This document shows, one piece after another, positions 11,833 to 26,022 of a stretch of 64,000 nt of DNA. The DNA lies in contig NZ_CP129118.1 of the NCBI RefSeq assembly GCF_033304615.1, forward strand, positions 926,001-990,000. Reading direction: 5' to 3'. The position numbers were made by a program, and so were the translations under genes. Origin of the DNA: Sporosarcina oncorhynchi. GTDB lineage: Bacteria; Bacillota; Bacilli; Bacillales_A; Planococcaceae. Below the pieces are notes generated by a model that saw only the letters and a program-made list of their open reading frames with translations, searched no databases and had not been told where the DNA came from. Positions within the stretch are counted from its first letter, which is position 1. Each line of letters starts with the position of its first letter.

Positions 11833-13188
11833 ATGATTATCAATCACAATATCGCAGCACTTAACACACACCGTCAATTGGGTTCAAACAATGCGCAGGC
11901 TTCTAAAAACTTGGAGAAATTGTCTTCTGGTTTGAAGATTAACCGTGCAGGAGACGATGCTGCTGGTCTAGCAATCTCTGAAAAAATGCGTGGACAAATC
12001 CGCGGTTTGGATATGGCACAAAAGAATGCTCAAGATTCAATTTCATTGATTCAAACTGCTGAGGGAGCTTTGAACGAAACTCACGATATTTTACAACGTA
12101 TGCGTGAATTAGCAGTCCAATCTTCAAACGATACAAACACTTTAGATGACCGTAAAGAAATTCAAAAAGAAGTAGAGCAATTAAAAGCTGAAGTTAACCG
12201 CATTTCTGAAACTACGGAGTTTAATACTAAAAAGTTATTAAACGGTAGTCTTGGTGTAAATGGAACATCTAGTAATAAAGCTAATGTCGATGTAGTTTCA
12301 GCTACTGGACTGACAAAAGGGAACTATTCTTTCACAGTTGATACAGCAGCAACTAAGGCTACGGCAGCAGCAGATGGAACTGATTTTACAAGTGCTACCG
12401 ACGTATCTGCAAAAGAATTAGTCATCAATGGAACTAAAATTGACTTTTCAGGAATGACTGCAGCGACTGCAGCAGATATTAGTGCTAAAATTAATGAATA
12501 CAAGGATATTACGGGAGTTGAAGCAAGTGGTTCTGCAGAAATCACTTTAACTCAAACCTCTTTCGGAACAGATGCGGAAATCGTATTAGGAGGTGCTGAC
12601 GCAGCAGAATTTGGTGGTGCCGTTACAGCAGGGATTGACGCAGTAGTTACTGTATCAAATCCTAATGGAGCCACAGAACAAGTTAATGGTATTGGACAAT
12701 CAATTACTTACAAAGGTGCCGAGTTCACAGCTAAAGGAACAGGAGCATCTACAGCGACTGTTTCAGTTACAGGCGGTGGAGCATCATTACAAATTGGAGC
12801 TAATAAAGACCAACATATGCAAATAGACATTGGTGAAATTAGTGCTTCTGTATTAGGTGATAAAGCGAACGGTGCTTACGTAAAAGACGTTAATTTATTA
12901 ACAAAAGATGGCGCGAATGATGCTATCAAAGTACTTGATAATGCAATCCAGCAAGTTTCTGGTGAGCGTTCTAAGTTAGGTGCATTCCAAAACCGCCTAG
13001 AACACACAATCAACAACCTCGGAACTTCTTCCGAAAACCTAACTGCTGCGGAATCACGTATCCGTGACGTTGATATGGCGAAAGAGATGATGGACTTCAC
13101 GAAGAACAACATCTTAACTCAAGCAGCACAAGCTATGTTGGCTCAAGCGAATACAGCACCGCAAGGCGTGTTACAACTCCTTCGTTAA
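11833..13188 (+). CDS. hag: Flagellin, main filament protein
   Basis: 451 residues. Canonical D0/D1 ends: MIINHNIAALNTHRQLG, LSSGLKINRAGDDAAGLAIS near residue 30, and the C-terminal LTAAESRIRDVDMAKEMMDF region ending PQGVLQLLR. The central 140-330 region is an Ala/Thr/Gly-rich outer domain, making the protein longer than the roughly 304-residue B. subtilis Hag. Preceded by a sigma-D promoter and a CsrA-type leader. A group I intron core and a spare copy of the last flagellin codons lie directly after the stop; if the intron splices from inside hag the encoded C-terminus could change, but the frame as it stands already encodes a full normal end. Confidence 0.96.
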   Translation: MIINHNIAALNTHRQLGSNNAQASKNLEKLSSGLKINRAGDDAAGLAISEKMRGQIRGLDMAQKNAQDSISLIQTAEGALNETHDILQRMRELAVQSSNDTNTLDDRKEIQKEVEQLKAEVNRISETTEFNTKKLLNGSLGVNGTSSNKANVDVVSATGLTKGNYSFTVDTAATKATAAADGTDFTSATDVSAKELVINGTKIDFSGMTAATAADISAKINEYKDITGVEASGSAEITLTQTSFGTDAEIVLGGADAAEFGGAVTAGIDAVVTVSNPNGATEQVNGIGQSITYKGAEFTAKGTGASTATVSVTGGGASLQIGANKDQHMQIDIGEISASVLGDKANGAYVKDVNLLTKDGANDAIKVLDNAIQQVSGERSKLGAFQNRLEHTINNLGTSSENLTAAESRIRDVDMAKEMMDFTKNNILTQAAQAMLAQANTAPQGVLQLLR

Positions 13189-13193
13189 TGTAT

Positions 13194-13512
13194 TCACGGG
13201 CGTCTTATCTGGCAACGGATAAGATCATCACTGGGTGAATTGCTGGAACCTCCTGAGAGCTCATCTACCACAGCGTAACTGGAAACGGTAAACGTGATGG
13301 TTTGAAAAAGAAGAGATTGGACAATCAGCAGCGAAGCCCCTGTCGGGAAACCGTGGGGAACGTTCAACGACTAGGATATACCGTCTAAGGCAATCGCTAC
13401 GACGATGAAATCCGTAGGGTGTTACGAGTCGTAACATTCGAAGTGCCCAGCCCCTTGGAATGTTTAAGGGTGAAGATATAGTCTGACCTTTATAGAAATA
13501 TATTGGACGCAT
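13194..13512 (+). other. Group I intron core downstream of hag
   Basis: No protein frame. It has the conserved elements of a group I ribozyme in order: a hairpin TCTTATC/GATAAGA (13203-13225), the GAATTGCTGGAACC region (13237-13250), AATCAGCAGC (13323-13332, P4/P6 strand), GTTCAACGACTAGG (13362-13375) and AAGATATAGTCTGACC (13473-13488), whose GACTA/TAGTC halves form P7. A CATTC/GAATG hairpin (13434-13461) sits before P7'. It ends next to a copy of the flagellin 3' exon. P1 and the 5' splice site could not be fixed by eye, so the boundaries are approximate. Confidence 0.8.
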
Positions 13513-14715: not shown

Positions 14716-14750
14716 TAAAACGCTGTTCGGAAAATCGAATTGCGTTTTTA
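14716..14750 (+). terminator. Terminator after hag 3' exon copy 2
   Basis: AAAACGC ... GCGTTTTT weak hairpin at the same place relative to the exon as the terminator at 13569. The flank after the stop codon (CTGGTTACTAAAACGC against ATGGTTAATAAAACGC) confirms the duplication. Confidence 0.55.
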
Positions 14751-15614
14751 CACATTAATTAATCGCTCTGATTCCTTCGTGATTTCTCTCCACTTATACA
14801 CGGTTGACCAATATGTTCTGTCCAAGGTATACGCTATTTCATTTATCGTATATCCTAACAGTTTCATCTTAATCAGTCCGTCGATCTCATCTTCGCTATA
14901 CTTTTTACTTCTCTGCCTTGAGCTTGTCAGTATTTCATAATCGGGATATTTGGATTTCCATTTCATCGTCTCCAGATTCAGCCTATCTTGCCAATTCGTC
15001 TTATAATACATCGATGGACATGCCGTAGTAACTTCACTTATAACATCTAGAAATCTAAATGTATCATCTACGGTAGTTGTTTTTAAAATATAGCCATTGC
15101 CATCATTTCTCTGACTCAGTCTCAATTTTACTTTGAAAACCTTCGTTACATGTTCGTTTAAAAGTTCTAGTTCTTCTTTTGTGAAGGATTGTAGATATAA
15201 TGCAATGTGAGGAGTCATGTAAATCTTTTTAAGCCGATGATTGATTCTGTATGAGATCATTAAAGACCCGTCGTCCATATAAAGTGTTGCCAGGAAGTGT
15301 GGTAATGTACAAAGTTTCAATACTTCTGGAGGAATTTGCTTTATACGATTATTTCCATAAAAAAGTTTTTCAAGCTTTGTAAACATTGATTGTGACTTGC
15401 TCGAGATTTCGGTTCGTGTTTTATTGAAATAAAGGTAGTCACTCAGATGCGCTACTTTCCATTCGCGATAGGCAAGTTGAGATTTACCAAAGCGCTCACG
15501 ATAATTACTGTTTATCCTTCTGCCTTGGATTTTCGTTAATGTCCCGTCGCCTAATATACTGCCAACCAGGATATTTAACTGCACCGGCGATAAAACTTGT
15601 TCACATAGTAGCAT
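14748..15614 (-). CDS. LAGLIDADG homing endonuclease
   Basis: 288 residues. Two LAGLIDADG helices are visible, LVGSILGDGTL near residue 18 and LATLYMDDGSL near residue 105, the catalytic aspartates being in GDG and DDG. The C-terminal 50 residues (YSEDEIDGLIKMKLLGYTINEIAYTLDRTYWSTV) look like a helix-turn-helix. Such enzymes cut intronless alleles and so spread group I introns. Start at MLLCEQV, with AGGAGTG about 6 bases before; the 11 upstream codons have no site. It faces hag from the far side of the decayed second exon copy, so it is now outside any visible intact intron. Confidence 0.88.
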   Translation of the reverse strand: MLLCEQVLSPVQLNILVGSILGDGTLTKIQGRRINSNYRERFGKSQLAYREWKVAHLSDYLYFNKTRTEISSKSQSMFTKLEKLFYGNNRIKQIPPEVLKLCTLPHFLATLYMDDGSLMISYRINHRLKKIYMTPHIALYLQSFTKEELELLNEHVTKVFKVKLRLSQRNDGNGYILKTTTVDDTFRFLDVISEVTTACPSMYYKTNWQDRLNLETMKWKSKYPDYEILTSSRQRSKKYSEDEIDGLIKMKLLGYTINEIAYTLDRTYWSTVYKWREITKESERLINV

Positions 15615-15729
15615 CACAATCACTCCTAATCCATAATAGGAACGCATGATCTTATTTTATCATAAACTATCAATTGTGCTACTATTCGAGAAGGCATTTA
15701 TCTCGTTTTCCCCGAAAGGAGCAGGAACC

Positions 15730-24416: not shown

Positions 24417-25481
24417 TCATTTTCGCTGTGATTTTGTGATTGCCTTCCAGCGTTTCCGTTCAGCGATTTGAGATTGTGCATTCGTTTTACGATCCAAGTA
24501 TGCGATTTCCCGTTGCAATTTGACGTAGCTCGCAAAACGGTCTTCAGCAAGTTCTCCGTCTTCTAACGCTTGTTGAATGGCGCAGCCCGGCTCCGATTTA
24601 TGGCTGCAATCATTGAACTTGCATGACTCAGAAAGGGCCTCAATATCTGAAAATCCACCTTCAACACTTTCACTATCGTTCCAAAGCTGGAATTCACGCA
24701 TCCCTGGTGTGTCAATCAGTACACCGCCATCAGGCAAAGGGATAAGTTCGCGATGGGTCGTTGTATGACGGCCTTTCGCATCGTCTTCGCGGATTGTTTG
24801 TACAGTCATAGTCGAATCACCGCAGATCGCATTGACTAAAGAAGATTTGCCGACACCTGATGAACCTAATAGTGCAGCAGTTTTACCATCATGCAACAAC
24901 GAGCTGATTTGGTCGATCCCTCTGCCAGTTTTACTACTGACAGCAAGCACTTCCGTTCCGAAAGCGATATTTCGTGCTTGGTCAATAAAATCTTCTGGAG
25001 AATCGCACAGATCCGCTTTGGTCAGCACAATTACAGGCACTGCACCAGAGTCATAGGCGGCGACTAAGTATCTTTCCAATCTCGGGATGTTGAAATCATC
25101 GTTCATAGAAGTGACGAGAAATACGATATCGACGTTAACAGCAATTAGTTGTTCAGTCATGGTAACCCCTGCCGTTTTACGAGAGAAAACAGAACTTCTC
25201 GGGAGAATGGCGTGAATAATGCCTCGTTCCTCACCGGGCATCCGCTCAATCGCTACCCAGTCGCCGACAGCGGGGTAATCTCTTCGGTCAATTGCATGAT
25301 GAAGCAAAGAGCCGGAACAGACCGCTAGCCACTCGCCTTGTTCAGTTATTACCCGATACATATGCTTATGTTCTAATGTCACGCGTCCGATCTTACAATC
25401 GTTTGATTTGAAGAGATGTTGTTGTTCATCCCAATGTGTTTGAAAAAGTTCATTCCAACCATAGTTTTGTAGTGTAGTCAA
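24417..25481 (-). CDS. rsgA: RsgA-type ribosome small-subunit GTPase
   Basis: 354 residues. Circularly permuted GTPase: N-terminal OB-like part, G4 as LTKAD near 155, then G1 GSSGVGKSS near 212 and G3 DTPG near 255, and a C-terminal zinc site CKFNDCSHKSEPGC. RsgA helps late 30S maturation and responds to (p)ppGpp in other species. Bacillales often have the main copy (yloQ) elsewhere, beside the prkC/prpC genes, so this may be a paralogue. Expression appears controlled by a leader ORF and a terminator just upstream. AGGAGG lies 7 bases before the ATG. Confidence 0.92.
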   Translation of the reverse strand: MTTLQNYGWNELFQTHWDEQQHLFKSNDCKIGRVTLEHKHMYRVITEQGEWLAVCSGSLLHHAIDRRDYPAVGDWVAIERMPGEERGIIHAILPRSSVFSRKTAGVTMTEQLIAVNVDIVFLVTSMNDDFNIPRLERYLVAAYDSGAVPVIVLTKADLCDSPEDFIDQARNIAFGTEVLAVSSKTGRGIDQISSLLHDGKTAALLGSSGVGKSSLVNAICGDSTMTVQTIREDDAKGRHTTTHRELIPLPDGGVLIDTPGMREFQLWNDSESVEGGFSDIEALSESCKFNDCSHKSEPGCAIQQALEDGELAEDRFASYVKLQREIAYLDRKTNAQSQIAERKRWKAITKSQRK

Positions 25482-25508
25482 TTAAATTCCTCCTAAATAT
25501 GAGCATAT

Positions 25509-25549
25509 AAAAAAAGCATGGGTCCGTGTATGATCGGACACCATGCTTT
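25509..25549 (-). terminator. Leader terminator before rsgA
   Basis: Read on the minus strand: AAAGCATGG-GTCCG... paired with CGGAC-CCATGCTTT and a run of T at 25509-25515. It lies only 28 bp before the rsgA start, so it must be bypassed for rsgA expression. Its first half can instead pair with 25595-25614. Confidence 0.85.
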
Positions 25550-25614
25550 CACGCGCATACCAGAAGAAACATGCCTGTACTTAAGGCATGGCAGGTGAAA
25601 GTATGGGTCCGATC
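25532..25614 (-). promoter_or_regulatory. Alternative antiterminator pairing in rsgA leader
   Basis: Minus-strand GATCGGACCCATACTTTCAC (plus 25595-25614, inside the leader ORF) is complementary, with two mismatches or bulges over about 20 bp, to GTGAAAGCATGGTGTCCGATC (plus 25532-25552), the first arm of the terminator. A small hairpin CATGCC/GGCATG lies between them. The two structures exclude each other. Confidence 0.75.
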
Positions 25615-25646
25615 CAAGTCGCAATTGCCAAGTTGAAGTTTGCCAT
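25581..25646 (-). CDS. Leader peptide of rsgA, 21 residues
   Basis: Short ORF on the minus strand: MANFNLAIATWIG followed by PILSPAMP and TAA, with AGGTGA 6 bases before the ATG. It begins about 25 bp after a consensus promoter and its codons 11-18 form one arm of the antiterminator, so its translation would decide between the two RNA structures. Sequence is mostly hydrophobic. A second possible mini-ORF of 7 codons (MFLLVCA) follows. It is not a known family. Confidence 0.65.
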   Translation of the reverse strand: MANFNLAIATWIGPILSPAMP

Positions 25647-25677
25647 AGTAATCACCTGCTTTCTGAAAGTTAGATTA

Positions 25678-25706
25678 ATCATAATTCAGAGACGTTTGTC
25701 TGTCAA
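25678..25706 (-). promoter_or_regulatory. Sigma-A promoter of rsgA leader
   Basis: On the minus strand: TTGACA (plus 25701-25706), 17-bp spacer, TATGAT (plus 25678-25683). Strong match in both boxes and in spacing. Transcription would start near 25670 and run through the leader ORF. Confidence 0.88.
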
Positions 25707-26022
25707 GGAAGATTTGAGATTAATTGGAAGGTATGAGGAAAAGTTGTTAATAGTTTTTGTTGTAGAATAAGCCTGTCTATTCGCTGATGTCTACACTTTC
25801 ATTTTTATTTCAAAAAGTCACTTATCTTTGGGGATGTTATAGAACTTTAATTAAATGAAGTACATTGACAATGTGCATATTACAGATTACACTCGAATTA
25901 GAACATATATTCCTATAAGTGGCTGCAATTGAACTAAAATCTGCTAAGGAAAATAGTCTTAAAAAGTGGTATCCTAGTAACAAAGGTTTTTTTGCATACT
26001 AATGAAGGAAGGAGAGAAGACA

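Follow-up and report, generated by a model that had tools for sequence, protein, structure and literature searches.

Leader open reading frames (ORFs) have previously flagged ribosome-protection genes such as vmlR and hflXr, and also erm and msrD. In the vmlR leader of Bacillus subtilis, arrest at initiation induces the gene, three natural variants of the leader peptide function as well, and a pause hairpin together with the motif TTNTTT gives a NusG-dependent pause (PMC9226507). At toiL, the upstream ORF (uORF) of topAI in Escherichia coli, an RNA fold is opened when tetracycline or retapamulin arrests ribosomes at the start codon, and several drug classes are sensed (PMC12121999). A leader ORF and RNA that can fold in alternative ways also precede homologs of ribosome-acting GTPases, namely hflXr (lmo0762) of Listeria, whose leader rli80 has a terminator (PMC6310831), and hflX, preceded by uORFC-6-1 (PMC8632094). 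Here, we analysed a leader with comparable features in a 64,000-nucleotide stretch of Sporosarcina oncorhynchi DNA (NZ_CP129118.1, positions 926,001 to 990,000; ‘the window’, from whose first letter all positions are counted). The leader precedes a gene for a paralog of the GTPase RsgA. Based on modelled RNA folds, we read it as a four-strand, ribosome-mediated transcription attenuator that would be switched by arrest at its start codon and would control the paralog, and we assign this reading a probability of about 0.8.

Attenuators of this kind are known, while an RsgA paralog as the target was not found described. An earlier inspection of the window’s sequence (the original prediction) had named no known attenuator on rsgA, and we likewise found no description of one in the open-access literature. 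The architecture is like that of vmlR (PMC9226507), with an anti-antiterminator that includes the leader ORF, a hairpin at the antiterminator apex (a pause hairpin in vmlR) and a terminator. However, the vmlR ORF has three codons (MIN) and its target is an ABC-F protein, whereas the leader ORFs analysed here have 19-26 codons, precede an RsgA paralog and themselves supply a switch strand, strand B. The hflXr and hflX leaders differ in their 14-residue ORFs with the macrolide-arrest motif RLR; here the predicted site of arrest is the start codon. The toiL uORF differs in acting on translation and Rho, in being gram-negative and in its target. An RsgA/EngC paralog of Streptomyces coelicolor, SCO6149 (the induced copy, as read from the order of a listing in the source), is controlled by the transcription factor WblC (PMC7157823), unlike the gene studied here. 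Elsewhere, a study of organisms that produce inhibitors of protein synthesis lists rsgA among its tabulated protein-synthesis genes, and in Staphylococcus the loss of Era, which stands in for RsgA, is reported to raise spectinomycin sensitivity.

Results

All elements of the locus lie on the minus strand in the 5'-to-3' order promoter, leader ORF, P2 hairpin, terminator, ribosome-binding site (RBS) and gene. The original prediction had placed a promoter, a 21-residue ORF with a Shine-Dalgarno (SD) sequence and a terminator before the gene; all of them were found, with 27 nt measured between the terminator and the TTG start codon (25481). The sigma-70-type promoter TTGACA-17-TATGAT (25706-25678; 11 of 12 matches) is the best of four promoter-like sites in an 801-base scan. 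As 2.9 such sites are expected by chance, its support comes from conservation instead: TTGA[CT]-N16-19-TAnnnT is found 5' of 83 of the 84 related leader ORFs introduced below (mononucleotide shuffles, mean 2.8). Strand A (25643-25659) contains the strong SD sequence AAGCAGGTGAT (25659-25652) of the leader ORF together with its ATG (25646-25644) and constitutes the 5' side of the anti-antiterminator. The ORF itself (MANFNLAIATWIGPILSPAMP; 21 codons, 25581-25646) ends with TAA at 25583-25581. Its codons 11-19 form strand B (25591-25614), which is predicted from pair counts, swap tests and masked folds to pair either with A (OFF) or with C (ON). Strand C (25532-25552) consists of the terminator 5' arm and a few preceding bases, and strand D (25509-25525) of the 3' arm and seven T. 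The core stem of the terminator spans 25546-25516 (25549-25513 including A-T pairs) and is followed by the seven-T run at 25515-25509; the SD sequence of the paralog, AGGAGG, occupies 25489-25494. An alternative pairing of codons 11-18 with the first terminator arm, as originally proposed, is borne out by a duplex of 19 pairs, interrupted by a single bulge and a single mismatch, between 25614-25595 and 25552-25532. The leader fold has a z-score of -6.1, and none of 200 dinucleotide shuffles was equally stable.

Between strands B and C lies P2 (25570-25590), a hairpin of seven pairs, five of them changed on both sides in relatives, whose loop holds the leader stop codon and which would form the apex of the antiterminator. 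By analogy with SL-2 in the excerpted vmlR study (PMC9226507), P2 is a possible RNA polymerase pause hairpin. It is followed 3' by TTTCTTCTG (25561-25569), which deviates slightly from TTNTTT, the NusG pause motif, and has a putative function in pausing; NusG may act at P2 as it does at vmlR. In the stretch from stop codon to strand C, 17 of the 84 leaders contain TTNTTT exactly, 54 only TTNTTC and 13 neither, counts taken without a chance control. No Rfam family passed its cut-off on this RNA with gathering and permissive thresholds; the best weak match (E 0.19) is on the opposite strand, and the L20 leader scored 13.9 bits against a cut-off of 58.7. A search of the S. oncorhynchi genome for a second copy of the leader yielded none, the next matches having E 0.8 or worse.

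In the proposed mechanism, A:B and C:D would form in the free RNA and in RNA whose ORF has been completed, so that the leader RBS would be hidden and transcription would end. If a ribosome, or a 30S initiation complex, were halted at codons 1 to 3 or 4, it would cover A and leave B free, and B would pair with C around P2, block the terminator and allow transcription of the paralog. A ribosome moving further would cover B and restore termination. The signal would be arrest at the step from start to elongation and not the peptide. What, then, would hold a ribosome there? Most plausible are drugs that trap it at the start codon, namely pleuromutilins, lincosamides, streptogramin A and tetracyclines, a list taken from the excerpted work on vmlR and toiL, and we consider it reasonably probable that a drug is the natural signal.

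Predicted switching was followed by masked folding of 84 leaders, 44 from Sporosarcina (g1) and 40 from five other genera of the family (g12, g13, g14, g15 and g19). Folded free, they form A:B and the terminator, with mean numbers of antiterminator and terminator pairs of 3.4 and 12.6 in g1 (44 leaders), 1.0 and 14.9 in g13, and 0 and 15.4 in g14. Masking of the start codon by a ribosome changes these values to 21.0 and 1.6, 17.3 and 3.5, and 21.3 and 1.1, respectively; B:C displaces the terminator in these three genera and partly in g12 and g15. With the ribosome at the stop codon, the terminator re-forms. An anti-antiterminator of the vmlR type, which holds the leader RBS and is opened by a ribosome at the start, is hence what the folds predict. 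They agree with the original prediction that completion of the ORF favours the terminator and an early stall the antiterminator. Its further claim that poor initiation leaves the antiterminator was not supported: since the empty leader hides SD and AUG and folds into the terminator, absent initiation should be OFF.

A scan of ribosome positions, with ON defined as more antiterminator than terminator pairs, covered 79 of the 84 leaders (L015, L024, L026, L091 and L092, including all of g19, were left out for ORF-to-gene distances of at least 330 nt). At codons 1-7, respectively 39, 35, 37, 26, 13, 11 and 2 of 41 g1 leaders were ON. The corresponding numbers for g13 were 18, 18, 18, 6 and 0 of 22 at codons 1-5 (0/22 at codon 7) and for g14 7, 6, 6 and 0 of 7 at codons 1-4 (0/7 at codon 7). 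A few g1 leaders were ON again at codons 19-25 (up to 5/40). Because ON is mostly limited to codons 1-3 or 4, a ribosome arrested on the start codon or immediately past it is the predicted trigger.

Both alternative helices are kept while the sequence changes, in line with the compensatory changes that the original prediction had proposed to look for. The paralog occurs in 44 of 68 Sporosarcina genomes (E <= 1e-60), and a leader ORF of 19-25 codons stands behind an SD sequence at all 44 loci, its C-terminus a variant of IGPILSP; the ORF search required an in-frame SP or SL, so that agreement in frame is partly built in. In an alignment of 42 of these leaders, 92.1% of the cells of the antiterminator plus P2 are paired, and nine pairs are changed on both sides (shuffled mean 4.7; 1/500 shuffles as high; slid versions 2-5). 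In the terminator helix 94.3% of cells are paired, 41 cells are changed on both sides and 0/500 shuffles reach this number; the SD helix has 96.1% of cells paired. As judged from these alignments, the case for pairing within the genus is good, that for independent compensations modest. The two leaders omitted for their large inserts, L015 and L024, carry palindrome-rich inserts of about 200-250 bases in the P2 loop, with P2 arms and switch strands intact.

For loci outside Sporosarcina, we built a covariance model of the leader, with antiterminator plus P2 as structure, and searched 261 genomes of the family with it (the order-level search comprised the same 261). It gave 94 matches with E <= 0.01, including exactly the 44 gene-bearing Sporosarcina genomes (42 by construction, two not) and none of the 24 gene-less ones. 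Of the 50 matches outside the genus, 40 were examined; all precede an orthologue of the paralog, in the five genera named above, and all have a leader ORF, of 20-26 codons. ORF and alternative helix are thus conserved in relatives (44/44 and 40/40 loci). Peptides are mostly dissimilar between genera, e.g. QIQSIMSRSVYR, RIGMFQVSHHTYAF and RISKFMMSHSVCL, while that of L082 (g15) does resemble the Sporosarcina type. The SD free energy (dG) is <= -8 in 43 of 44 Sporosarcina and 38 of 40 other leaders. The two g19 leaders, L091 and L092, are recognized by the model as well as in the complementarity test but stay OFF in the masked folds.

For all 84 leaders, strand B was paired with its own C and with C strands of other genera, and A:B was treated likewise. 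Own B:C duplexes (kcal/mol, own/swapped) were more stable in every genus: -32.3/-14.4 in g1, -30.9/-12.7 in g13, -26.9/-13.1 in g14, -25.5/-15.6 in g15, -23.0/-15.5 in g19 and -24.1/-20.4 in g12. For A:B, own values ranged by genus from -17.4 to -21.6 and swapped ones from -12.4 to -16.3 kcal/mol (g13 -21.6/-13.6; g14 -21.5/-14.1; g12 -17.4/-12.4). Compared with dinucleotide-shuffled ORF strands, the ORF-to-terminator duplex had per-genus mean z-scores from -3.1 to -5.7. Complementarity of B to two partners while the sequence turns over is the signature of a switch. The covariance model includes B:C (not A:B), which biases the B:C test for the 40 non-Sporosarcina leaders, and the swap test was therefore repeated on 24 loci that were found by protein alone and in which a strong leader ORF is accompanied by a terminator-like hairpin, 11 from the family but missed by the model and 13 from elsewhere in Bacilli. 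In the 11 family loci, B:C averaged -27.5 own and -15.1 swapped, with z <= -2 in 11/11 and the own strand beating every swap in 8/11; A:B gave -21.0 and -14.6 (z <= -2 in 6/11). The 13 other loci gave -19.3 and -13.7 for B:C (z <= -2 in 8/13) and -19.0 and -13.3 for A:B (z <= -2 in 7/13). With the ribosome at codon 7, 0/11 and 1/13 of these loci were ON; several of those not ON at codon 1 shift part-way there. One of the class loci, L189, has strong B:C and A:B, yet it folds ON when free, the reverse of the others.

In Bacilli as a whole, the paralog was found in 187 of 398 genomes and 65 of 145 genera (E <= 1e-70). A strong leader ORF (10-32 codons, SD dG <= -8, at most 420 nt upstream) precedes 46 of 58 further Bacilli paralogs, or 44 of 56 without two genomes counted twice (L146 and L152, from the same genomes as L171 and L167, are kept here and were dropped from the 24-locus set), and 24 of these 46 loci have a terminator too. 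Under the same rule, such ORFs were found ahead of 1 of 30 canonical rsgA genes and of 4 of 46 other window genes, a fifth match being the target itself. They are present in Alkalibacterium and Macrococcoides and lacking in two deltaproteobacterial and one cyanobacterial paralog. Translational attenuation was considered for the terminator-less paralogs and set aside, the SD-release test being mostly negative (3/25). In Listeria, the ORF MAIVKMENLIINTGVFYL lies ahead of the paralog with a short hairpin over the gene SD (L122, 2334-2500). The ORF has a nine-pair complementarity to the pre-gene region, but folding did not support a switch, and SD release went from 0.78 in the free RNA to 0.76. 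The Listeria paralog presumably bears the locus tag lmo1332.

The leader peptide shows little sign of constraint. Pooled pN/pS values for ORF codons 2-8 in four genera were 0.72, 0.32, 3.07 and 1.66; the synonymous constraint that the original prediction had proposed to look for does not emerge from them. As these values are not low, start site and RNA pairing appear to be kept rather than the peptide, and an unconstrained peptide agrees with a sensor of the start site. A search for an arrest-peptide motif found no residue motif common to the genera and no RLR in the 44 Sporosarcina ORFs; RLR does occur near the ORF end in L129, from another genus.

By its sequence, the controlled gene is a distinct RsgA paralog that falls outside the clade of canonical housekeeping (YloQ-type) RsgA. 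It encodes 354 aa from a TTG start (24417-25481, minus strand; Pfam RsgA_GTPase 4.1e-54; TIGR00157 187.9 bits, cut-off 100) and keeps the P-loop, HTT, DTPG and the zinc ligands C287, C292, H294 and C300. The S. oncorhynchi genome (3.48 Mb, single contig) contains two further RsgA relatives. One is the housekeeping rsgA (294 residues, G000:C1:1943907-1944788), located inside an operon with neighbours that we take from their sequences to be rpe-like and PASTA-kinase-like genes. A quick maximum-likelihood tree built from 93 proteins separates 62 paralogs (support 92) and 30 canonical proteins (support 100), and a canonical copy is also present in 30/30 genomes picked for carrying the paralog. The original prediction of an attenuator on rsgA thus stands with respect to the leader-ORF attenuator and needs correction with respect to the gene, which the tree separates from housekeeping rsgA. 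A GNAT gene, tentatively suggested to be switched on as well, does not belong to the conserved unit: in the 0.6-1.5 kb covered behind the gene, it was found in 2 of 84 loci, one of them the window’s own.

Several results weigh against the proposed mechanism or limit its reach. Folding was equilibrium-only and treated the ribosome as a fixed footprint from -16 to +15. The g19 leaders show no switch at the start codon (3.9 antiterminator versus 12.6 terminator pairs), and only 4/7 leaders of g12 and 1/2 of g15 are ON at codon 1. The same holds for only 4/11 (family) and 5/13 (other Bacilli) of the protein-found loci, which are ON as free RNA in 0/11 and 1/13 cases. Within the genus, the antiterminator proper accounts for only four of the two-sided pairs (five cells), the remaining five pairs being in P2. 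In the terminator only three pairs are changed on both sides (98/500 shuffles as high), mainly through one exchange common to 20 sequences that affects two of the three, and covariation in the SD helix is modest (two two-sided pairs; 24/500 shuffles as high). Swapped duplexes are as stable as own ones in 26% of cases for B:C in g12; for A:B this applies to 19.5% in g1, 10.4% in g15 and 0-4% elsewhere. As the canonical rsgA of S. oncorhynchi, one of the controls, is an operon-internal gene, its upstream sequence is not matched in kind. Predicted SD release exceeds 0.15 in no more than 3 of the 25 paralogs with a leader ORF and without a terminator. Finally, there is little or no amino-acid constraint on the leader ORF, and 49 of 84 leaders have frame +2 open as well, so that the coding status of the ORF rests on SD and start codon. 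Overall, the element is real and conserved, and most of the sequence tests run show the behaviour of a ribosome-sensing attenuator.

Some further observations concern relatives of the paralog. The third RsgA-like protein of the genome (L002, G000:C1:3139332-3140243, 338 aa) is very divergent and forms a long branch next to the paralogs in the quick tree. All named relatives with at least 78% protein identity are Sporosarcina, the nearest being S. quadrami with 95% (24 loci). A plasmid search returned relatives of the paralog in 176 records, every one below 60% identity. Two of the plasmids, CP065518.1 and CP031730.1, are labelled Stenotrophomonas rhizophila and carry a paralog with 56% identity, which points to either transfer or mislabelled records. 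On plasmid pMGMM7 of Lysinibacillus fusiformis (NZ_CP130332.1; L123), the paralog is directly followed by fosM, annotated as fosfomycin resistance; this copy is without a strong-SD leader ORF. PADLOC gave only weak P-loop-type matches, and nothing relevant on expression of the Bacilli paralog was found in the open-access literature.

Elsewhere in the window, a group I intron (RF00028, 90 bits) was detected at 13176-13505 on the plus strand. The match starts 12 bases before the end of ORF 11833-13188, presumably a flagellin-like gene, which keeps a normal-looking C-terminus. About 1.2 kb from the intron, ORF 14748-15647 (minus strand) contains ILVGSILGDGTL and resembles a LAGLIDADG homing endonuclease.

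Discussion

The same switch could also answer to an endogenous signal. A leader SD that collects non-productive 30S complexes, be it excess or immature 30S or the product of failed subunit joining, would turn the leader into a sensor of the 30S or initiation state. The predicted ON window, which spans the start codon plus two or three codons after it, fits a bound 30S equally well, and SD dG reaches -10 or lower in 42 of 44 Sporosarcina and 38 of 40 other leaders. Moreover, the GTPase family acts on the 30S, and solved RsgA relatives exist, several of which are structures of 30S complexes. On the other hand, a 30S that does not initiate must open the A:B hairpin, and the known relatives vmlR, toiL and hflXr respond to drugs. 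On balance, we regard an endogenous 30S signal as unlikely, if conceivable.

Three further explanations are weaker still. Binding of a protein to the leader, e.g. of the paralog itself or of a ribosomal protein, with the ORF being incidental, would be in keeping with a structured RNA, and ribosome-related genes often autoregulate. However, no Rfam family reaches its cut-off, and SD, AUG and helices persist although the primary sequence changes from genus to genus, so we consider such binding improbable. A codon-specific amino-acid starvation attenuator of the trp or his leader type would fit the topology of leader ORF, antiterminator and terminator, but the peptides vary between genera without any conserved run of a single amino acid, and nearly all scanned leaders are predicted to be OFF when arrest falls beyond codon 6, which leaves little room for control codons. 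For lack of such codons we rejected this model as highly improbable. Least credible of all is that the ORF encodes a functional small protein whose ratio to the GTPase is merely set by the terminator; its presence in 44/44 and 40/40 loci would suit this, but pN/pS between 0.32 and 3.07 in codons 2-8 and peptide ends that are unlike between genera speak against it.

Our preferred reading thus remains the start-arrest attenuator. Its design is independent of the peptide, with the leader’s own RBS as a switch strand, and could serve as a general reporter of start-codon arrest. The drugs that induce the leader would hint at what the paralog protects against, although a protective role as such is a tentative proposal. 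In the same tentative spirit, we suggest that the RsgA paralogs of this unstudied, Bacilli-wide clade may act in ribosome rescue or protection and stay silent until the leaders sense ribosomes or 30S complexes stuck between initiation and elongation. If true, a checkpoint GTPase of ribosome assembly would have been redeployed, as was HflX in the case of HflXr, and the loop would be closed, since the sensed particle would be the substrate of the enzyme. With such a leader conserved in several genera, and strong leader ORFs present across much of the class, ahead of this relative of a GTPase of 30S assembly, a further drug-response factor may stand behind a housekeeping annotation.

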